Shown piece after piece: positions 24,901 to 52,310 of a stretch of DNA of 64,000 bases. The translations under genes were made by a program, and so were the position numbers. Location: NCBI GenBank assembly GCA_945897185.1, contig CAMDFC010000004.1:1-64000 (forward strand), written 5' to 3'. Positions within the stretch are counted from its first letter, which is position 1; each line of letters opens with the position of its first letter. The DNA comes from Chitinophaga pinensis (GTDB lineage Bacteria > Bacteroidota > Bacteroidia > Chitinophagales > Chitinophagaceae). The notes beneath the pieces are model-generated. The model was not told the origin of the DNA and searched no databases. It saw only the letters and a list, made by a program, of their open reading frames with translations.

Positions 24901-24970
24901 AGCGAATAATTTGTAGCAGCAAGGTAATTAAAAGCGCAAAAAAGAAATTACCGAATTATTCACAAAAAAA

Positions 24971-25066
24971 TGGCAGGTTGATTACATCGCACCGCTCAAC
25001 CGTCTACCCTTGCTACCTTCCGGTCCTGGGGGAGTTCAACAGGAGCTGGTCGTGCAAGACCTGCCA
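24971..25066 (-). ncRNA. ffs: Signal recognition particle RNA, small bacterial type (4.5S-like)
   Basis: Minus strand has the conserved apical domain CCCCCAGGACCGGAAGGTAGCAAGGGTA, complementary ends TGGCAGG/CCTGCCA, then T7. Confidence 0.95.
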
Positions 25067-25069
25067 ATG

Positions 25070-25077
25070 CAAAGATA
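25070..25077 (-). promoter_or_regulatory. Candidate -7 box (TATCTTTG) for the SRP RNA gene
   Basis: Exact TAnnTTTG a few nt upstream of the RNA 5' end; -33 element weak. Confidence 0.55.
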
Positions 25078-41866: not shown

Positions 41867-42949
41867 TTATTTATTTAGAAGAGATGCAAGTCTTGTTTGC
41901 AATTCCTCCCCTCTTAGATTTTTTCCAACAATGACACCGTTTGGATCAATTAAAAAATTCTGTGGTATGCTTTGGATTTTATATTGCACAGCAACAGCAT
42001 TACTCCAAAATTTTAAATCGCTCACCTGCGTCCAAGTTAATTTATCCTCCTTAACTGCTTTCAACCATGGATCTCGCGCTCTATCTAAGGAAACCCCAAA
42101 CACAGTAAAATTCTTGTCTTTGTATCTATTGAAGGCATTCACTACGTTTGGATTCTCTTGACGACATGGTCCGCACCAACTGGCCCAAAAATCAACCAAA
42201 ACATATTTTCCCCTGAAAGAGGACAACTTAACATCTTTACCATCTTGGTCTTGCTGTACAAAATCTGGCGCTTCAGTTCCAACAGATGCAAACTTTGCAT
42301 CCTCAACCAGCTTCAATGCTGATTTTCCAAAATAATTCATTTTGGCTTCTTCAGTAATTTTAGACAATCGCTGTTCCATAACAGCTGGATCGTCATTCAA
42401 CTGCATCATAACCAACAAAACAAAGGGAGCAACGGGTGAATTGTTATGCGCATTAATATACTCGTCCGTTTTTGCATTCACTTCTGAAACCACCTCACTG
42501 TAGGATTTACGAATAGCTCCATCAACATCTTTTTCGCCTGAATTTAATTTTTGTGCAAACGAAGAAAGCTTTGCAAACAAAGGATTAAAGGTTGAGTTGA
42601 ATAATGCGAAATCATCATGCGATTTTGATCCCGTAACTTTTGCATTTTGTAATACAAGCAGGTCACCTTCAATTACAATATTAGATACATCTAAAAAAAT
42701 CATTAACTTTTGCTGTGAATCTTTTATACTAAGTTGGTATAAGCCAGGCTCAGTAAGCATACCACTGGTCTCAAATTTTTCACCTGTAGACTTAAAAGTT
42801 GCCAATGTTGTTGGCGCCTGTTCCTCATTCCTTAAAATCAACTCAGTCTTGTCCTTTATCCCTTTTATTGTTCCTCTGATACTGAACTTTCCTCCTTGAG
42901 CAAAAGAGATCACGGGCAATGCCAAAAATACCAATAATAAATATTTCAT
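41867..42949 (-). CDS. TlpA-like thiol-disulfide protein with N-terminal DUF4369-like domain
   Basis: GKYVLVDFWASWCGPCRQENPNVVNAF; N-terminal FSIRGTIKGIKDKTELILRN; ATGA overlap with hisIE. Confidence 0.92.
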   Translation of the reverse strand: MKYLLLVFLALPVISFAQGGKFSIRGTIKGIKDKTELILRNEEQAPTTLATFKSTGEKFETSGMLTEPGLYQLSIKDSQQKLMIFLDVSNIVIEGDLLVLQNAKVTGSKSHDDFALFNSTFNPLFAKLSSFAQKLNSGEKDVDGAIRKSYSEVVSEVNAKTDEYINAHNNSPVAPFVLLVMMQLNDDPAVMEQRLSKITEEAKMNYFGKSALKLVEDAKFASVGTEAPDFVQQDQDGKDVKLSSFRGKYVLVDFWASWCGPCRQENPNVVNAFNRYKDKNFTVFGVSLDRARDPWLKAVKEDKLTWTQVSDLKFWSNAVAVQYKIQSIPQNFLIDPNGVIVGKNLRGEELQTRLASLLNK

Positions 42950-43545
42950 TTCTGATGTCTAGTTTTAAGTACCTCAATTACTTCGTCTAAAGTATGTCCT
43001 TTACTGTTAAGTAAAAGTAAATAATGAAATAGCAAGTCAGCTCCTTCATTAAGGAATTTATCCTTGTTGTTGTCCTTTGCTTCTATCACCAATTCCACCG
43101 CTTCTTCTCCAACTTTTTGGGCAATTTTATTAATCCCTTTTTCAAACAGTGATTTTACATAAGAATTTTCATCCCCTGCAGACTTTCTCTCTTCTATAAC
43201 TGATTCCAGATACCCAAGAAACCCTTCATGCACATTCAACTCATTCCAACAAGTATCTGAACCGGTATGGCAAACTGGACCAGTTGGTGCAGCTTTAATT
43301 AAGAGTGCATCGCCATCACAATCTAATGCATAGGAAACCAGCTTTAAAAAGTTACCGCTATCCTCTCCTTTTGTCCATAACCTAGACTTAGACCTACTGT
43401 AAAAAGTAACCTTTCCACTAGAACAGGTTTGTTCAAAAGCTTCTTTATTCATATACCCCAACATCAACACTTTGGATGTTTTACTATCCTGCACCACAGC
43501 TGGAACAAGCTTATCTAAAAACTTATCAAATGCTATATTCATCAA
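42946..43545 (-). CDS. hisI: Bifunctional phosphoribosyl-AMP cyclohydrolase / phosphoribosyl-ATP pyrophosphatase
   Basis: VPAVVQDSKTSKVLMLGYMNKEAFEQT; SRLWTKGEDSGNFL; C-terminal QKVGEEAVELVIEAK. Confidence 0.96.
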   Translation of the reverse strand: MMNIAFDKFLDKLVPAVVQDSKTSKVLMLGYMNKEAFEQTCSSGKVTFYSRSKSRLWTKGEDSGNFLKLVSYALDCDGDALLIKAAPTGPVCHTGSDTCWNELNVHEGFLGYLESVIEERKSAGDENSYVKSLFEKGINKIAQKVGEEAVELVIEAKDNNKDKFLNEGADLLFHYLLLLNSKGHTLDEVIEVLKTRHQK

Positions 43546-43557
43546 AACAAAATTAAA

Positions 43558-44316
43558 TCATTTTATTCGCACAGGAATATGCTTGTTATTTAAATAGGTC
43601 TTTAAAGCTGGAATCCGAATCTCCCCAAAATGAAAAACACTGGCGGCAAGCGCCGCGTCAGCACAACCATTTAAAACATCATAAAAGTGCTCAGGTTTAC
43701 CTCCACCACCAGAGGCTATAATGGGTACGCCAACTGAGTTTGATATTAGTGTGGTTATTTCTAATGCAAAACCCGCTTTGGTACCATCGTGGTCCATTGA
43801 AGTAAGTAAAATTTCTCCCGCACCTCTGCTTACCACTTCTTTTGCCCAATCGAGGCAAGTAAATTCAGTAGGTTTCCTACCCCCATTTGAGTAGACATAC
43901 CATTCGCCATCAACCTGTCTCTTTGCATCAATCGCTACAACAATACACTGACTTCCAAATTCCCCTGCCAATTTGTTGATTAATTCAGGTGAATTGAATG
44001 CTGCAGTATTTATTGAAACTTTATCGGCTCCACAATCCAATAAAATACGTACATCTTCCATAGATGAAATTCCACCTCCTACAGTAAATGGTATATTAAT
44101 AGTATGCGCTACTTTTTCAACAAGTGCAGAAAGTGTTTTTCTTTTTTCGTTTGTTGCAGTAATATCAAGAAAAACCAACTCATCAGCACCTTGCTCTGCA
44201 TACAAAGAAGCCAACGCTACAGGATCGCCAGCATCCCGTAAATTTACAAAATTTGTCCCTTTCACAGTTCTCCCATCCTTAATATCCAAACAAGGTATAA
44301 TTCGCTTTGCCAACAT
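43558..44316 (-). CDS. hisF: Imidazole glycerol phosphate synthase subunit HisF
   Basis: [59 protein letters not shown]. Confidence 0.97.
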
Positions 44317-44318
44317 AT

Positions 44319-45047
44319 TTACTTAGTTTGTAAATTGAAAGATGCCAATGCTTCTAAAGTAATTTTGTTTTCATAAATAGCCTTACCTACAATAGCCCCA
44401 GCGCAACCTATTTTCCTCAACTCAATTAAATCATCTATAGAAGAAACACCACCACTTGCTATTAGTTTTATTGTGGGAAATCGTTCAATAATTTCACTAT
44501 AAAGTGAAAAAGATGGTCCCATTAACTTTCCATCTTTACTGATATCTGTACAAAAAATATTCACCATCCCAAGTTGTACATAGCCTTCAATAAAATCAAA
44601 AATATCAATCTCTGTTTCCTCTAACCAACCTCCAGTCATGATTTTATTGTTTCGCACATCCGCACCCAACAAAAATTTATCCTCACCAAATTGCTTTATC
44701 CAGCGTTTAAACGTTTCTGGGTCTTTTGCCGCAATGCTACCCACGGTAACATAATCAATCCCCAATCCTAAAATTTGTTCAACTTCGGTTTCCGTTTTTA
44801 CACCTCCTCCAAAATCAATGGAAAGAGAAGTTTGTTTTGCGATTTCTTCCGAAACGTTCCAATTTACCACCTTACCCAACTTAGCACCATCAAGATCCAC
44901 CAGATGAACACGTTTGAATCCTAAAGAAGCATACATCTTGGCCATTTCAAGCGGACCAGTAGCATATTCGGTTTTGGATGCATAATCACCTTCAGTGAGT
45001 CGAACACATTTTCCTCCAATGATATCGATTGCCGGAATTATTTGCAT
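44319..45047 (-). CDS. hisA: HisA isomerase
   Basis: [45 protein letters not shown]. Confidence 0.96.
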
Positions 45048-45643
45048 CAGAATGGTATATTGATAAAGTTTTCTAAAATCTTAGACCCAACGGCAGCACT
45101 TTTCTCTGGGTGAAACTGCACTCCATAATAGTTTCTAATGTGCAAAGCAGAACTGTAGCTTCCACAATAGTTTGTTTCAGCAATGGTATGGATGCCTTTA
45201 TCTGCACGGTATCCATTCACAAAATAACAATACGCCCCTTCTTCTACACCATTGAACAGAGGCGAATTCAAACATTCAATTGTATTCCATCCAATTTGAG
45301 GAATTTTTTCTCCTGCCTGTGTGGATTTAAACTTCAGGACAGTTTCCTCAAAGAGTCCTAGACAGGTTGTGTTATTTTCTTCACTATAGGAACACATCAA
45401 TTGCATACCTAAACAAATACCCAACACAGGCTGTTTTAAATCGATAAGTAGTTTATCTAATTTTCTGTCCTGCAAATATTTCATGGCTGAACTGGCCTCA
45501 CCTACGCCTGGAAAAATTACCCGATCTGCAGAAAGAAGAACTTCATGGTCATCGGTAAGTGTAGCCATAATTCCTAAGCGCTCTAATGTAATCTGAACTG
45601 ACCTTACATTTCCTGCATTGTATTTTAATATAGCAATATTCAT
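45047..45643 (-). CDS. hisH: Imidazole glycerol phosphate synthase subunit HisH
   Basis: NIAILKYNAGNVRSV; VIFPGVGEASSAM; LGICLGMQLMCSYSEE; GVQFHPEKSA. Confidence 0.96.
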   Translation of the reverse strand: MNIAILKYNAGNVRSVQITLERLGIMATLTDDHEVLLSADRVIFPGVGEASSAMKYLQDRKLDKLLIDLKQPVLGICLGMQLMCSYSEENNTTCLGLFEETVLKFKSTQAGEKIPQIGWNTIECLNSPLFNGVEEGAYCYFVNGYRADKGIHTIAETNYCGSYSSALHIRNYYGVQFHPEKSAAVGSKILENFINIPF

Positions 45644-46419
45644 TATTCTTCATTAAGAACAGCCCTCACAAAAGCTGCAGCAACAATACCTGGGTCGTTT
45701 GCGTTGTGCAAAGCCTTTATAAAAGCAGACCCAATAATTGCTCCATTTGCATGAGGCTTCACAAAATCAAAAGAAGCTTTGTCTTTTATACCAAACCCAA
45801 CCAAAAACGGATTATTAAGTGCATAGGACTTTAACCTATCTAGGTAAGCCACAACATGATCAAAATCTTTTTCATTGCCAGTGGTAGAAGATGAAGAGAC
45901 TGCATACACAAACCCGGAGCTAAGTTCATCAAGTTTACGAACTCGGGCTTCACTGGTTTCAGGTGTCACCAAAAAAACAAAATCAAGACCGTTACGTTTT
46001 ACAATATCTCCATAAACATTTTCAAATTCATATGCGGGTAAATCTGGCAGTATTAAGCCATCAACACCTACTTGAGCAGCATGTTCACAAAATTTTTGAA
46101 ACCCATATTGCAACACTGGATTCATGTACCCCATCAGAACTACGGGCAAGGTAATTTCCTGTCTAAATGCTTTTAGTTGACTAAATAATTTCTCAATAGA
46201 CATGCCATTTTCAATTGCAACAGCGCTACTCTCCTGTATAACCGGACCATCTGCTAATGGATCGCTGTAGGGCATTCCAATTTCTATTAAATCAGCTCCC
46301 CCATTTTGAATGCCTCTCATTACCTCTAGGGTACTTTCTAATGTTGGGTATCCCGCCGTAAAATAAACATTCAAAACGCCATTGGGCTTTCTACTAAACA
46401 ACTCTTCAATTCTTCCCAT
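45643..46419 (-). CDS. trpA: Tryptophan synthase alpha subunit
   Basis: NVYFTAGYPTLESTLEVM; DLIEIGMPYSDPLADGPVIQESSAVAI. Confidence 0.97.
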   Translation of the reverse strand: MGRIEELFSRKPNGVLNVYFTAGYPTLESTLEVMRGIQNGGADLIEIGMPYSDPLADGPVIQESSAVAIENGMSIEKLFSQLKAFRQEITLPVVLMGYMNPVLQYGFQKFCEHAAQVGVDGLILPDLPAYEFENVYGDIVKRNGLDFVFLVTPETSEARVRKLDELSSGFVYAVSSSSTTGNEKDFDHVVAYLDRLKSYALNNPFLVGFGIKDKASFDFVKPHANGAIIGSAFIKALHNANDPGIVAAAFVRAVLNEE

Positions 46420-46430
46420 AACAAACTTTA

Positions 46431-47624
46431 TTAAACATCTAATGCATTCATGTAAGTGTCAAGGTCTTTGTCACCTCTACCACTCAGACAAATAACATTA
46501 ATATCATTTTTATTGAATTTAATTTGACTCAGCACCGAAAATGCATGGGCCGTTTCAAGTGCAGGAATAATACCTTCCAATTTAGAAATTTCAAATGCAG
46601 ACTGCATTGCTTCTTGGTCTGTGGCACTTAAAAAAACAGCCCTTCCTGAAGTATATAGATGGGCATGCATTGGACCAATACCTGGATAATCTAGTCCTGC
46701 TGAAATGCTATGCGGCTCCACTACTTGTCCATCTTTTGTTTGCATCACAATACTCTTGCTGCCATGTAAGATACCAGCAACACCCAATTGTGTAGTTGCA
46801 GCACTCATACCACTATTTACGCCATGACCAGCAGCTTCAACAGCCACAATTTCCACTTGTGGTTCATCTAAAAAATGATAAAATGCTCCTGCGGCATTAC
46901 TTCCCCCGCCCACGCAGGCTATAACGCGTGTAGGAAGAGAATTGCCTTCTTTTTCGAGCAATTGAGTTTTGATTTCTTCACTAATCACCGACTGAAACCT
47001 TGCCACCATATCAGGATATGGATGTGGACCTACTACTGATCCAATGATATAATGGGTATCGACAGGATGATTAATCCAATCGCGAATCGCTTCATTGGTT
47101 GCATCCTTTAAGGTTTTACTACCGCTGGTTGCAGGAATAACTTTTGCTCCAAGAATTTTCATTCTAGCAACGTTTGGTGCCTGACGTTTAATGTCTTTTT
47201 CACCCATATAAACAATACATTCTATTCCCTTTAAAGCGCACACTGTTGCTGTAGCAACACCATGTTGACCGGCTCCTGTTTCAGCAATAATTCTTTTTTT
47301 ACCCAAACGAATAGCCAATAATATCTGACCAATTGTGTTGTTTATTTTGTGAGCACCAGTATGACAGAGATCTTCTCGTTTAAGATAAATTTTTGTGTCA
47401 TGTTTGGCGCTGAGTCGCGCTGCATAAAAAAGAGGAGTTGGACGCCCAACATAATCTCTTAACAATTCATGGTATTCCTTTTGAAAGAGTGGATCTTGGT
47501 AGATACTCAGGTAAGCCTCTTTTAAAGTCTCTACATTTTGGTGTAGCATTTCAGGAATAAATGCTCCTCCAAAATCACCATAATAACCTTCAATGTCAGG
47601 AACAGAAAAACTTTTAACAGTCAT
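46431..47624 (-). CDS. trpB: Tryptophan synthase beta subunit
   Basis: KREDLCHTGAHKINNTIGQ; ETGAGQHGVATA; CVGGGSNAAGAFYHF. Confidence 0.98.
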   Translation of the reverse strand: MTVKSFSVPDIEGYYGDFGGAFIPEMLHQNVETLKEAYLSIYQDPLFQKEYHELLRDYVGRPTPLFYAARLSAKHDTKIYLKREDLCHTGAHKINNTIGQILLAIRLGKKRIIAETGAGQHGVATATVCALKGIECIVYMGEKDIKRQAPNVARMKILGAKVIPATSGSKTLKDATNEAIRDWINHPVDTHYIIGSVVGPHPYPDMVARFQSVISEEIKTQLLEKEGNSLPTRVIACVGGGSNAAGAFYHFLDEPQVEIVAVEAAGHGVNSGMSAATTQLGVAGILHGSKSIVMQTKDGQVVEPHSISAGLDYPGIGPMHAHLYTSGRAVFLSATDQEAMQSAFEISKLEGIIPALETAHAFSVLSQIKFNKNDINVICLSGRGDKDLDTYMNALDV

Positions 47625-48259
47625 GAGTTATTTTTTAAACTATCAACAAATTTTCGAATCAAACCCATATTTTTTATGCCCGGTGATACTTCAAATTTAC
47701 TATTCACATCAACTGCATAAAGGTCTTTTTGTATACTAGCAAGCTCATGTAATTCTTTACCCAATTCAGCACCAATTCCACCACTGAGAAAATAAGGTTT
47801 GCCTAATGCTTTATTACTAACCAATTTCCAATCAAATTGTTTACCCGTTCCTCCATACTTTTCGCCCATTGTGTCGAATAAAAAATAGTCAACAACATCC
47901 CTATACGGACTAACCCTTAATTCAATATCGTCTATTGTACCTACTCTAAATGCTTTTATAACCTTTACCTGTTTTGAGATTCGCTCGCAATAGGCTGGGG
48001 TTTCCTCTCCATGTAGTTGAACCATTTCAAGTCCCCAATCCGCAACTAACCGTAGTAAATCGCCTTCCTGTTCGTTAACAAAAACACCAATTTTTCTAAT
48101 GCTTATTTGCTGCGCTTTTGTTTCTGATGCTTGCATTTTATGCTTGCCTACATATCTTGGAGAATGGGGATAAAAAATCAATCCTGCATAATCAACCCCT
48201 AATAATTGGAGTTCATTTAATTGCTCAACACTTGTTATGCCACAAACCTTAATCAGCAT
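47621..48259 (-). CDS. trpF: Phosphoribosylanthranilate isomerase
   Basis: LIKVCGITSVEQL; DYAGLIFYPHSPRYV; VQLHGEETPAYCE; SGGIGAE. Confidence 0.95.
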   Translation of the reverse strand: MLIKVCGITSVEQLNELQLLGVDYAGLIFYPHSPRYVGKHKMQASETKAQQISIRKIGVFVNEQEGDLLRLVADWGLEMVQLHGEETPAYCERISKQVKVIKAFRVGTIDDIELRVSPYRDVVDYFLFDTMGEKYGGTGKQFDWKLVSNKALGKPYFLSGGIGAELGKELHELASIQKDLYAVDVNSKFEVSPGIKNMGLIRKFVDSLKNNS

Positions 48260-49044
48260 TATAATTTGATTTGATTTATGAATTCCCCCAGGGCGCTTCC
48301 AGGATCTGTGTTTTTCATGAAGTTTTCTCCTATAAGAAAAGCTTGGTATCCGTTTTCTTTGAACAAACGAACCTGAGCAGGATCATCAATTCCGCTTTCA
48401 GCTACTTTAATATATTGAGATGGAATAGCTGCAGCCATTCGTAAACTACGCTGAACATCTACGTCAAAAGTTTTTAAGCTGCGGTTATTGATTCCAACAA
48501 ATTGAACTGTATTGCAAATATGCTCAAGCTCCTCATCATCATGTAGCTCTAAAAGAACCTCCAAGCCAAGTTCATTTGCCAAATTAGAATATGAAGAAAC
48601 TTCTGCTGGAGTTAAACAGGCTGCAATAAGAAGTATCAGATCTGCACCCATTGCTTTGGCCTCATGAATTTGGTATTCATCAATTATGAAATCTTTTCGA
48701 AGAATTGGAATTGAGAGCTGTTTTCTTGCTGTAATTAGGTCTTGATCACTCCCTCCAAAAAAATCAACATCGGTAAGAATGGAAACTGCTGAAGCCCCAT
48801 TTTGTTGGTAACCCTGGGTTACTTCAACAACCTCTGCTTTTATATTTATATTACCCTTAGACGGTGACTTTCTTTTAAATTCTGCAATAATCCCCGAGCC
48901 TTCCCCATTTGATATTTTTGAGGAAAGGGAAAGCGGAGATCGCTGGTACATTTCAGCTTTTTGAAGCGCTGAAAGAGGCACAAGCTGTTTTTGGGATTCT
49001 ACCCATTCTTTTTTTCTACTAACTATTTTATCGAGTATACTCAT
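48259..49044 (-). CDS. trpC: Indole-3-glycerol phosphate synthase
   Basis: IIAEFKRKSPSKGNI; ASAVSILTDVDFFGGS; PILRKDFIIDEYQI; GINNRSLKTFDVD. Confidence 0.96.
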   Translation of the reverse strand: MSILDKIVSRKKEWVESQKQLVPLSALQKAEMYQRSPLSLSSKISNGEGSGIIAEFKRKSPSKGNINIKAEVVEVTQGYQQNGASAVSILTDVDFFGGSDQDLITARKQLSIPILRKDFIIDEYQIHEAKAMGADLILLIAACLTPAEVSSYSNLANELGLEVLLELHDDEELEHICNTVQFVGINNRSLKTFDVDVQRSLRMAAAIPSQYIKVAESGIDDPAQVRLFKENGYQAFLIGENFMKNTDPGSALGEFINQIKL

Positions 49045-49047
49045 AAC

Positions 49048-50043
49048 TTAAGCTTGAAGCGCAATTAATTTTTTATATACTCCAAATGCCTTTCCACCCA
49101 TTAAACTTTCAGTTGCATCAAAGCGTGCAGTTTCGTAATCAGTATATTTATCGGTAATAAGCAGAGCCAACGCAGCATTAGCCGTAACAACGGCATTTTG
49201 TGCTACTGTGCCTTTCCCTTTTAAAATATTCATGAAGATTTGTGCAGCAGCTTCAATGCTTTCACCACCATGTAAATCATGCTGATTAACATATTGTTTA
49301 CCCAATTGAAGTGGCGTTAAAATTGATTCCCCTGCCTTGGTAATCATTTTTACATCGGCTGTCAATGAAACCTCATCATACCCATCCAAAGAATGAATGA
49401 TTGCATACGCACGGTTTTCACCTTGCAACAAGTAATTATATATACGAGAGATTTCAAGGTTGTAAACGCCTATAAGCTGAAAAGCAGGATTTGATGGGTT
49501 AACCATTGGACCTAGGAGATTGAAGAAAGTTCTAACGCCGAGGTTTCTGCGAATTGTCGCTACTATTTTTAAAGCAGGATGAAAAACTGGTGCATGTAAG
49601 AAACACATGTTGGATTCGTCAATTTCTCTTTTAAGTGCTGCTGCATCGTTTTTAAATTTGTACCCAAGCGCTTCCATGAGGTTAGATGCCCCACTTATGG
49701 AACTTGCACCATAGGATCCATGTTTGGCAACTTGTTGACCAGTACCAGCAACAACAAAGCAAGAAAGCGTTGAAATATTAAATGTATTTTTCCCGTCACC
49801 GCCTGTCCCAACAATATCCATGACCTTTCTGTCTTCAAAATCCAATGCAACACACATCTCTAAGAGTGCCTCTCTGAAACCAATAAGCTCCTGCAGAGTG
49901 ATTGTCCGCATCAAGTAGACAGAAATGAATGTGCTCAATTCATATTCATTGTATGCCCCCTTACCTATATCCAGTAATACTTGCTTTGATTCACTTTGAG
50001 ACAAAGTCTGGTGTTCAAAAAGAAAGTTTAAAATCTTCTTCAT
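49048..50043 (-). CDS. trpD: Anthranilate phosphoribosyltransferase
   Basis: DIVGTGGDGKNTFNIST; KHGSYGASSISGASNLMEALG; VRTFFNLLGPMVNPS. Confidence 0.97.
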   Translation of the reverse strand: MKKILNFLFEHQTLSQSESKQVLLDIGKGAYNEYELSTFISVYLMRTITLQELIGFREALLEMCVALDFEDRKVMDIVGTGGDGKNTFNISTLSCFVVAGTGQQVAKHGSYGASSISGASNLMEALGYKFKNDAAALKREIDESNMCFLHAPVFHPALKIVATIRRNLGVRTFFNLLGPMVNPSNPAFQLIGVYNLEISRIYNYLLQGENRAYAIIHSLDGYDEVSLTADVKMITKAGESILTPLQLGKQYVNQHDLHGGESIEAAAQIFMNILKGKGTVAQNAVVTANAALALLITDKYTDYETARFDATESLMGGKAFGVYKKLIALQA

Positions 50044-50054
50044 ATTATCAAATA

Positions 50055-50657
50055 TTAAAAATCTTGAAAAGGATTTAACCAGTTCTCAATCATAGTCTTT
50101 CCTAAAGGCGTCAATAAACTTTCTGGATGAAATTGAACGCCTTGTACATCATAAACATGGTGTTTTAAAGACATAATCATTCCATGCTCATCCCATGAGG
50201 TTACTTCTAATTCTTTTGGAAATTGATCTCTATCTATAATCCAGCTGTGATAGCGTCCAACCTCTATTTCACTATCCAACCCCTTAAACAAATCATTTTT
50301 AAAAACAGATTTCTCCAAATCTTTCTTCAACTCAATTTTGGTAGCTACTCCATGAAAAACACGGGTGAGATTAGTTAGCCTTCCACCAAAAGCTTCTCCA
50401 ATAGCCTGATGACCCAAACAAACGCCTAAGATAGATTTCGATGCAGCATATTGTTTAATTAAAGGCAAAAGTATACCCGCTTCATTTGGTATACCTGGTC
50501 CGGGTGAGAGTATGATTTTATCAAACTCATTTACCTGATTAAGTGAAATTTCATCATTGCGAAAAACAGCTACTTTTTTCTTTATGATGTTCTCTACCAT
50601 TTGCACCAAATTATAGGTAAACGAATCGTAATTATCCAGTATTAGAATTTTACTCAC
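50055..50657 (-). CDS. trpG: Anthranilate synthase glutamine amidotransferase component
   Basis: ILILDNYDSFTYNLVQMVE; ILSPGPGIPNEAG; LGVCLGHQAIGEAFGG; GVQFHPESLLTP. Confidence 0.97.
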   Translation of the reverse strand: MSKILILDNYDSFTYNLVQMVENIIKKKVAVFRNDEISLNQVNEFDKIILSPGPGIPNEAGILLPLIKQYAASKSILGVCLGHQAIGEAFGGRLTNLTRVFHGVATKIELKKDLEKSVFKNDLFKGLDSEIEVGRYHSWIIDRDQFPKELEVTSWDEHGMIMSLKHHVYDVQGVQFHPESLLTPLGKTMIENWLNPFQDF

Positions 50658-50684: not shown

Positions 50685-52139
50685 TCATTTTCTATTCATT
50701 TCAGTTGCAAAACCAACTGCTTTCTTTAAAGCCCCAAGCTTATTGTTCACTTCCTGCAACTCGTTTGATGGGATACTTGAGGAAACAATACCAGCGCCTG
50801 CTTGATAAAAAAGGGTATTGGCTTTACTCAGAAAACTTCTTATTAAAATGGCTTGATTACAGGTGCCATCAAATCCGATGTAACCGATGGCACCACCATA
50901 AAATGACCTTGCTGTCTTTTCATATTTATTGATTAACTCCATCGCCTTAAATTTAGGAGCGCCACTCAAGGTGCCAGCAGGAAAGGTTTTTCCCATCAAT
51001 AAAAATGGATTTGCATTTTCGGGAACTGTACCAGTTACTTCACTTACTAGATGGATTACATGGGAATAGTATTTTACTTCTCGAAAATGAGAAACCTCTA
51101 CATTTTCACAGATTCTACTTAAATCATTTCGAGCAAGATCCACCAACATTACATGTTCTGCATTTTCTTTTGGATCTACCAACAATCTTTCTGCTTCCAA
51201 TTTGTCTGTAAGGTCATTCCCTGTTCTTTTGAAAGTACCCGCAATAGGATGTACAATCGCTTTACCGTTGGCAATGATTATTTGGCTTTCAGGAGAAGAT
51301 CCCATCAATTTATATTCACCGTAATCAAAATAGAACAAATACGGTGATGGATTAATCATTCTTAAAGCTCTATACACGTTAAACTCATCACCCTTGAATT
51401 TTTGTTCAAACCTTCTACTCAATACAATTTGAAAAACATCTCCCCTAAAACAATGCGCAATTCCTTTATCTACCATCTCCAAATATGCATTATCGTTGAG
51501 GTTAGATTGTTCAGGGCCATCCAATTCAAACGGGAACTGAGGTAAATCTCTGCTACAAATGATTTTTTCTACAGCCTTTTTATCCCCTTGAATGCCTTCA
51601 ACATGATTTTCTAATAAGAACAACTCATCTCTGAAATGATCAATGGCAATTACATATTGATAAAGTCTGTAACGCATCAGCGGAATCGCGGTTGTATCCG
51701 CATTCAAGAAACCATTACCCACATGCTGTGTATGATAGGGTTGCTCTGAAAATTTAATCGTTTCAAAAAATGGAATAGCATCATAACAAGTATAACCAAA
51801 AAGTCTTTGTGCAAATTTTATTTCTTTAGTTCCTTGTTCAACTTCGAAGCGCTGCATATAGCTCCATAACAAATCTGAAACTGCATCACTGGAAAATGAG
51901 GAACGGACTGGCAAAGATCCCGGATACTTAAACTCTACTTCTTCTTGATTTACAATTTCAATTCCTCCAATGGCGTTGATCGCAATAAATGAAAAACTAT
52001 TCTCAGTAGTATGGTGGTCAGTACTTTCTAACAGAATTGTATCACGAAACTTATCCCTTAATCTTAAATAGATGCCCACGGGAGTATAAAGGTCAGCTGC
52101 CATTTTATGTACAGAAGTGCTCAGTTGTATTTTTTTCAT
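50685..52139 (-). CDS. trpE: Anthranilate synthase component I
   Basis: FQIVLSRRFEQKFKGDEFNVYRALRMINPSPYLFYFDYGE; HPIAGTFKRTG; AGTLSGAPKFKAMELI; in operon with trpG. Confidence 0.97.
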   Translation of the reverse strand: MKKIQLSTSVHKMAADLYTPVGIYLRLRDKFRDTILLESTDHHTTENSFSFIAINAIGGIEIVNQEEVEFKYPGSLPVRSSFSSDAVSDLLWSYMQRFEVEQGTKEIKFAQRLFGYTCYDAIPFFETIKFSEQPYHTQHVGNGFLNADTTAIPLMRYRLYQYVIAIDHFRDELFLLENHVEGIQGDKKAVEKIICSRDLPQFPFELDGPEQSNLNDNAYLEMVDKGIAHCFRGDVFQIVLSRRFEQKFKGDEFNVYRALRMINPSPYLFYFDYGEYKLMGSSPESQIIIANGKAIVHPIAGTFKRTGNDLTDKLEAERLLVDPKENAEHVMLVDLARNDLSRICENVEVSHFREVKYYSHVIHLVSEVTGTVPENANPFLLMGKTFPAGTLSGAPKFKAMELINKYEKTARSFYGGAIGYIGFDGTCNQAILIRSFLSKANTLFYQAGAGIVSSSIPSNELQEVNNKLGALKKAVGFATEMNRK

Positions 52140-52152
52140 TTTCTATTGAGTT

Positions 52153-52180
52153 AAAAAAAAAGCCCCGAAATTTCGGGGCT
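52153..52180 (-). terminator. Candidate attenuator terminator upstream of trpE
   Basis: Perfect palindrome AGCCCCGAAATTTCGGGGCT (52161-52180), minus-strand U9 tract (52153-52161) ending 13 nt before the trpE ATG. Confidence 0.88.
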
Positions 52181-52215
52181 ATAACTATGCTGACAGACAA
52201 CAAGCTAGCTAGCCC
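52180..52215 (-). promoter_or_regulatory. Candidate antiterminator segment competing with the trpE-proximal terminator
   Basis: RNA GGGCUA-g-CUA-GCU pairs with AGC-a-UAG-uua-UAGCCC; the last arm continues into the terminator 5' arm (about 52175-52180). Confidence 0.65.
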
Positions 52216-52262
52216 TTTAGAGGGATAATATGCCAACCGTTATTTGTATTACTAATTTTCAT
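52209..52262 (-). CDS. Candidate Trp/His leader peptide MKISNTNNGWHIIPLKG*
   Basis: ATG 52262-52260; TGG 52235-52233; CAT 52232-52230; TAG 52211-52209; followed by antiterminator/terminator structures. Confidence 0.72.
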   Translation of the reverse strand: MKISNTNNGWHIIPLKG

Positions 52263-52293
52263 TGGCTCAAATTTCAATTATTCTTCAAACAAT

Positions 52294-52310
52294 TCCAAAA
52301 ATAATTTGGA
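52294..52310 (-). promoter_or_regulatory. Candidate promoter/operator for the trp-his leader: TATTTTTG box inside palindrome TCCAAA-N5-TTTGGA
   Basis: Minus-strand TATTTTTG at 52303-52296 matches TAnnTTTG; inverted repeat at 52294-52299 / 52305-52310. Confidence 0.4.

Follow-up and report, generated by a model that had tools for sequence, protein, structure and literature searches.

A candidate transcription attenuator for tryptophan and histidine upstream of a merged trp-his operon in Chitinophaga pinensis

The trpL leader of E. coli (RF00513, Trp_leader) combines a leader peptide carrying Trp codons with a 1:2 protector, a 2:3 antiterminator and a 3:4 terminator before trpE. In this leader an Arg codon comes directly after the two Trp codons, and termination is relieved by Arg starvation as well. 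Multi-amino-acid attenuators, in which a single leader carries codons for several amino acids, are represented by thrL (Thr, Ile) and ilvGMEDA (Ile, Leu, Val); to our knowledge, attenuators reading several amino acids are known only for related pathways. In other phyla, trp genes are controlled by T-box, TRAP-like protein or riboswitch systems. In the transcriptome of Flavobacterium psychrophilum, signs of leader-peptide attenuation were reported at amino-acid operons, together with a structured 5' element at hisG (PMC9723704), a report that supports control by leader attenuation in Bacteroidota.

Here we describe a leader of the same general layout as trpL, located before trpE in a 64,000-nt stretch of contig CAMDFC010000004.1 of Chitinophaga pinensis (the window, to which all coordinates refer). 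Judged from its sequence and that of its relatives, this leader is almost certainly an attenuator and very probably senses Trp. We consider it likely that it is a ribosome-mediated transcription attenuator with two regulatory amino acids, acting as an OR switch.

The leader region and the genes downstream

The features of the leader region, all on the minus strand, are listed in the order of transcription.

52296..52298, minus strand: -33 element TTG (within TTTTTGG) of a putative Bacteroidota-type promoter, from the sequence and the leaders of relatives
52268..52275, minus strand: putative -7 element GAAATTTG, spaced 20 nt from the -33 element, its distance to the leader ATG being 5 nt
52209..52262, minus strand: leader peptide ORF of 18 codons, MKISNTNNGWHIIPLKG followed by a stop codon, from the sequence and homologous leaders in relatives
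52233..52235, minus strand: candidate Trp regulatory codon UGG (TGG, 52235-52233)
52230..52232, minus strand: candidate His regulatory codon CAU (CAT, 52232-52230)
52213..52224, minus strand: predicted protector (1:2) mini-hairpin CCCU-CUAA-AGGG, from folding
52203..52215, minus strand: predicted antiterminator 5' arm GGGCUAGCUAGCU, from folding, overlapping the leader stop codon
52176..52191, minus strand: predicted antiterminator 3' arm AGCAUAGUUAUAGCCC, from folding, with AGCCC in common with the terminator
52153..52180, minus strand: predicted intrinsic terminator AGCCCCGA-AATT-TCGGGGCU plus U tract, from the sequence, pattern scan and folding

The first-pass annotation of this DNA had read a minus-strand leader ORF with adjacent Trp and His codons, and this reading was exact. 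The predicted translation product carries the two residues as GWH, where most relatives have WWWH or WWH. The promoter, like the poly-His hisG leaders and the nested trp operons described below, was absent from that annotation. Among the leaders of relatives, 124 of 171 have a TTG followed after 17-23 nt (mode 20) by NAnnTTTG just before the leader ATG, against a mean of 1.5 in shuffled sequence. The distance from the NAnnTTTG box to the ATG is a few bases, with a mode of 7, and the promoter is thereby placed upstream of the attenuator. From the known Bacteroidota promoter consensus and the positions of the boxes, transcription would start at or just before the leader ATG. Because the -7 box ends only a few bases before that ATG (52275-52262), the leader mRNA is probably close to leaderless.

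The terminator at 52180-52153 had been claimed together with its U tract, and it folds at -14.6 kcal/mol in the window. It is the sole terminator-like site in the region by pattern scan, although shuffled sequences average 1.2 such sites, so that the scan alone is not significant. The U tract ends 13 nt before the trpE ATG, a spacing given correctly by the first-pass annotation. The proposed competing antiterminator was also recovered: GGGCUAGCUAGCU pairs with AGCAUAGUUAUAGCCC at -17.4 kcal/mol, versus -14.6 kcal/mol for the terminator, and both structures use the AGCCC strand. The leader stop codon lies within the antiterminator 5' arm, as had been proposed. The whole leader region folds more stably than dinucleotide shuffles (z = -2.66). 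The proposed CCCU/AGGG protector is weak in the window. It folds at -3.3 kcal/mol, or -4.1 in an extended form, but in the window it is no better than shuffles (z = +0.48), whereas the local hairpin of relatives has a mean z of -1.27. A stem GCCAAU/GUUGGC, which appeared in the window fold as a possible mask of the start codon, was dropped since the GCCAA segment is absent in leader L003, compared by eye.

A terminator was called in 163 of 173 leaders. Among the leaders of relatives, cognate antiterminator arms pair at -13.5 kcal/mol and swapped arms at -11.6 (0/2000 permutations); for the 35 leaders of other families alone the effect is weaker and not significant (125/2000). The effect of ribosome position was modelled by folding only the RNA free downstream of the ribosome, which was assumed to cover 13 nt beyond the start of its A site. 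When the ribosome occupies the last Trp codon, the terminator arm is predicted to be captured with probability 0.70; the following codon gives 0.68, positions further along 0.57, 0.36 and 0.30, and the stop codon 0.19, while the value without a ribosome is 0.30. In the window itself, a ribosome at Trp gives 0.63, one at His 0.62 and one at the stop 0.26. This fall suggests that the codon after the Trp run would be the last position where a stalled ribosome fully favours the antiterminator.

The genes downstream, all on the minus strand, were assigned by profile matches.

50685..52139, minus strand: trpE (TIGR00564, E = 6.6e-116, below the curated cut-off)
50055..50657, minus strand: trpG (TIGR00566, above cut-off)
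49048..50043, minus strand: trpD (TIGR01245, above cut-off)
48259..49044, minus strand: trpC (NF001377, above cut-off)
47621..48259, minus strand: trpF, phosphoribosylanthranilate isomerase (NF002298, E = 6.4e-49, below cut-off)
46431..47624, minus strand: trpB (TIGR00263, above cut-off)
45643..46419, minus strand: trpA (TIGR00262, above cut-off)
45047..45643, minus strand: hisH, overlapping trpA (TIGR01855, above cut-off)
44319..45047, minus strand: hisA (TIGR00007, above cut-off)
43558..44316, minus strand: hisF (TIGR00735, above cut-off)
42946..43545, minus strand: hisIE (PF01502 and PF01503, above cut-off)

The order trpE-G-D-C-F-B-A-hisH-A-F-IE bears out the merged operon described earlier. 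Every gap is at most 27 nt and several genes overlap, so that transcription from trpE to hisIE as a single unit is probable. A thioredoxin-like gene (AhpC-TSA/DUF4369, 41867-42949) overlaps the end of hisIE and may be in the same transcript. Elsewhere in the window, a Bacteroidales small SRP RNA (RF04183, 92.2 bits) was found at 24967-25073 on the minus strand.

Conservation of the leader and of its His codon

We collected 201 trpE loci, of which protein similarity yielded 80 and genomes of the family or class 100, with 20 more from another family and the window itself as the last; 18 members of family f16 lie outside this set. A short ATG-initiated ORF with a Trp run (WW) or GWH was found before trpE in 177 of the 194 upstream regions with enough sequence, whereas the reverse strand gave 0 and shuffled sequence 2. 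After removal of duplicates, 173 distinct leaders remained, all keeping a run of 1-4 Trp codons; a slight preference for His in the script that picks leaders altered 0 of these 173 choices. Leaders combining Trp codons, antiterminator and terminator before trpE occur across Chitinophagaceae and in other Bacteroidia, and the majority of those in Chitinophagaceae read WWWHTNS, written TGGTGGTGGCATACAAACTC. The reading of the leader as a ribosome-mediated attenuator, made in the first-pass annotation, is strongly supported by this conservation, and the paired arms and the promoter also speak for it. Degenerate leader-pattern searches gave only noise over the class, and largely noise with few true leaders over the genus.

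The earlier concern over a single Trp codon holds for the window, which has one Trp and one His codon; in attenuation models a single codon is predicted to respond less sensitively than several in a row (PMC1183508). The GWH form is confined to the clade of the window (L001-L006 and L170) and relatives carry WWW or WW, so that the single Trp represents a local reduction of a WWW leader.

His directly follows the Trp run in 83 of 87 operons linked to any his gene, upstream or downstream, versus 25 of 52 unlinked operons (Fisher 1.3e-10); upstream linkage was scored only where upstream sequence was present or hisG was placed. A narrower count gave 80 of 83 operons with at least two downstream his genes, and 28 of 56 without downstream his genes. 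Models of correlated evolution on the TrpE tree gave a likelihood ratio of 22.9 (p = 1.4e-4), a value reached in 0 of 60 simulations without correlation, the highest of which was 12.4. When His was allowed within two codons, p was 4.4e-6, and an independent-pairs test pointed in the same direction with borderline median p values of 0.03-0.06. The first-pass annotation had suggested looking for loss of the His codon where his genes are absent. The predicted association is clear, but it is not all-or-none, since 25 unlinked operons keep His and 4 linked operons do not have it directly after Trp. Two of these 4 have His within two codons: in L063 (WWGH) and L210 (WWWQH), both with hisHAF attached, the codon after UGG-UGG has changed and a neighbouring His is kept. 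That leaves two real exceptions, L358 (WWWQ, four his genes; genome G543, 88% complete and 5% contaminated) and L231 (WWWQ, genome G019), where hisH is the only his gene; both speak against the dual reading. These data suggest that His sensing is probably a selected function, and the idea that one leader senses both amino acids for the attached genes is supported to that extent.

Unlinked operons have replaced His with Gln, Leu, Phe, Pro, Lys, Ser or Cys. After the Trp run, His is written CAU in 67 cases and CAC in 13. Operons with downstream his genes show 7 changes between CAU and CAC versus 2 to CAR (CAA/CAG), and the rest 4 versus 8 (Fisher 0.08), a pattern that is only suggestive. No overall enrichment of His elsewhere in the leader peptide was detected. 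His just before the Trp run (HWWWH) was seen in 18 of 83 operons with downstream his genes versus 2 of 56, counts not corrected for relatedness. As a separate observation, genome G071 (L196 and L330) carries trpEGDCF and trpBA-hisHAF about 37 kb apart on the same strand of one contig, as if split, with a leader that still reads WWWH.

trp operons inside his operons, and poly-His leaders

At least 20 relatives with enough upstream sequence have the order hisG-D-C-B, leader, trpEGDCFBA, hisH-A-F(-IE), in which the trp operon lies inside the his operon and carries its own promoter and attenuator (many Chitinophagaceae, among them L007, L018, L033, L044 and L070). A published survey described the trp-inside-his arrangement in Thermoflavifilum and Filimonas (PMC8305728). 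In the clade of the window hisGDCB has moved away: the window's genome has hisG on another contig, and hisG-D-C-B are on their own in the sister genome G054.

Leaders with at least three adjacent His codons precede hisG in 29 of 30 Bacteroidia genomes scanned (set L300-L329), with a terminator in most. The hisG leader of the window's own genome (L301, G000:C52) reads MLMTNHIHHHHNLPNG before its stop codon and is followed by a terminator. No Trp run was found in the hisG leaders listed from these 30 genomes, which suggests that cross-sensing is one-way: the trp leader would read His, and the his leaders would not read Trp.

The nesting could explain why a trp attenuator would respond to His. 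An internal attenuator reading Trp alone would cut expression of hisHAFIE when Trp is plentiful, and a His codon would avoid this cut. We are inclined to think that an OR-type attenuator has been kept because the trp operon invaded the his operon, its His codon resolving the shut-off of the second half of the His pathway by excess Trp and being released from selection after the operons separate.

Alternative readings, proposed mechanism and comparison with known systems

It is unlikely that the leader senses Trp only, with CAU or CAC following the Trp run through protector-stem pairing or shared ancestry. Such an account would draw on the 25 unlinked operons that keep His and on base pairing: in the predicted 1:2 stems of his-free lineages, GUG or AUG is often the partner of CAC or CAU (GUG in L349, L350, L355, L364, L265 and L366), and in many Chitinophagaceae the third base of CAU is paired with A. 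Pairing with GUG may, on these models, be the cause of His retention in several his-free lineages. However, the usual 1:2 stem of Chitinophagaceae leaves the C and A of the codon unpaired, and when only leaders with the codon outside any predicted protector pair are counted, His is found in 56 of 57 operons with downstream his genes versus 12 of 31 without. The neighbouring His kept by L063 and L210 despite their changed codon, and the correlated evolution on the TrpE tree, also argue against sensing of Trp alone.

The position between smpB and trpE, and a pattern scan that by itself does no better than shuffles, would fit an ordinary terminator of the upstream accD-smpB transcript, with trpE transcribed from elsewhere and the leader ORF present by chance. 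This is contradicted by conservation, as the leader ORF is kept also when hisB or unrelated genes lie upstream; a conserved promoter precedes the ORF, and just 13 nt separate the U tract from trpE. We regard this reading as highly improbable. The same low standing is given to control by a T-box, a TRAP-like protein or a riboswitch, for which the occurrence of such control in other phyla speaks; against it, the conserved part centres on Trp codons within an open reading frame, no match to the Rfam T-box model reached the gathering score in the region or in any scanned relative, and no Rfam family at gathering score covers the trpE leaders (this leader and the relatives scanned). Likewise, none covers the scanned poly-His hisG leaders. 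The RF00513 model gave 29.9 bits on the window leader, below its gathering score of 41, in a permissive search with other weak matches, and no homology is claimed.

For the dual Trp/His attenuator, we infer the following course, including the start site, the coupling of translation to transcription and the response to starvation. RNA polymerase would start at the Bacteroidota-type promoter that lies just ahead of the leader ATG, followed by a ribosome that translates the leader. When charged tRNA-Trp or tRNA-His is scarce, the ribosome would stall at UGG or the adjacent CAU and disrupt the protector hairpin, leaving the antiterminator 5' arm free; the antiterminator would then take the AGCCC strand and allow read-through into trpEGDCFBA-hisHAFIE. 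When both amino acids are plentiful, the ribosome would reach the stop codon and cover the antiterminator arm, and the terminator would form 13 nt before trpE. The resulting logic would be that of an OR switch, in which either shortage turns the genes on.

Two unrelated pathways that have come to share an operon appear to be integrated by one leader, a single switch that evolution seems to have adapted to both amino acids. Its regulatory codon can be traced through repeated linkage and separation of genes, a natural experiment on regulation after operon rearrangement. The leaders add a large unlisted set of leader-peptide attenuators for Bacteroidota, a phylum in which transcription-translation coupling is little studied. 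No earlier description of a Trp/His attenuator was found in the searched open-licence literature. The poly-His hisG leaders of Bacteroidia, from the same phylum and the same genomes, share the arrangement of a leader and terminator before the first gene, but carry His codons only and control hisGDCB or the whole his operon. Unlike in trpL, the codon neighbouring the Trp codon is that for His, the operon contains the genes of the corresponding pathway, and the presence of the codon follows theirs in evolution; the leader transcript of the window would also be nearly leaderless. Whereas thrL and ilvGMEDA read amino acids of one branched pathway, the Trp and His pathways are separate and are joined here by operon fusion.
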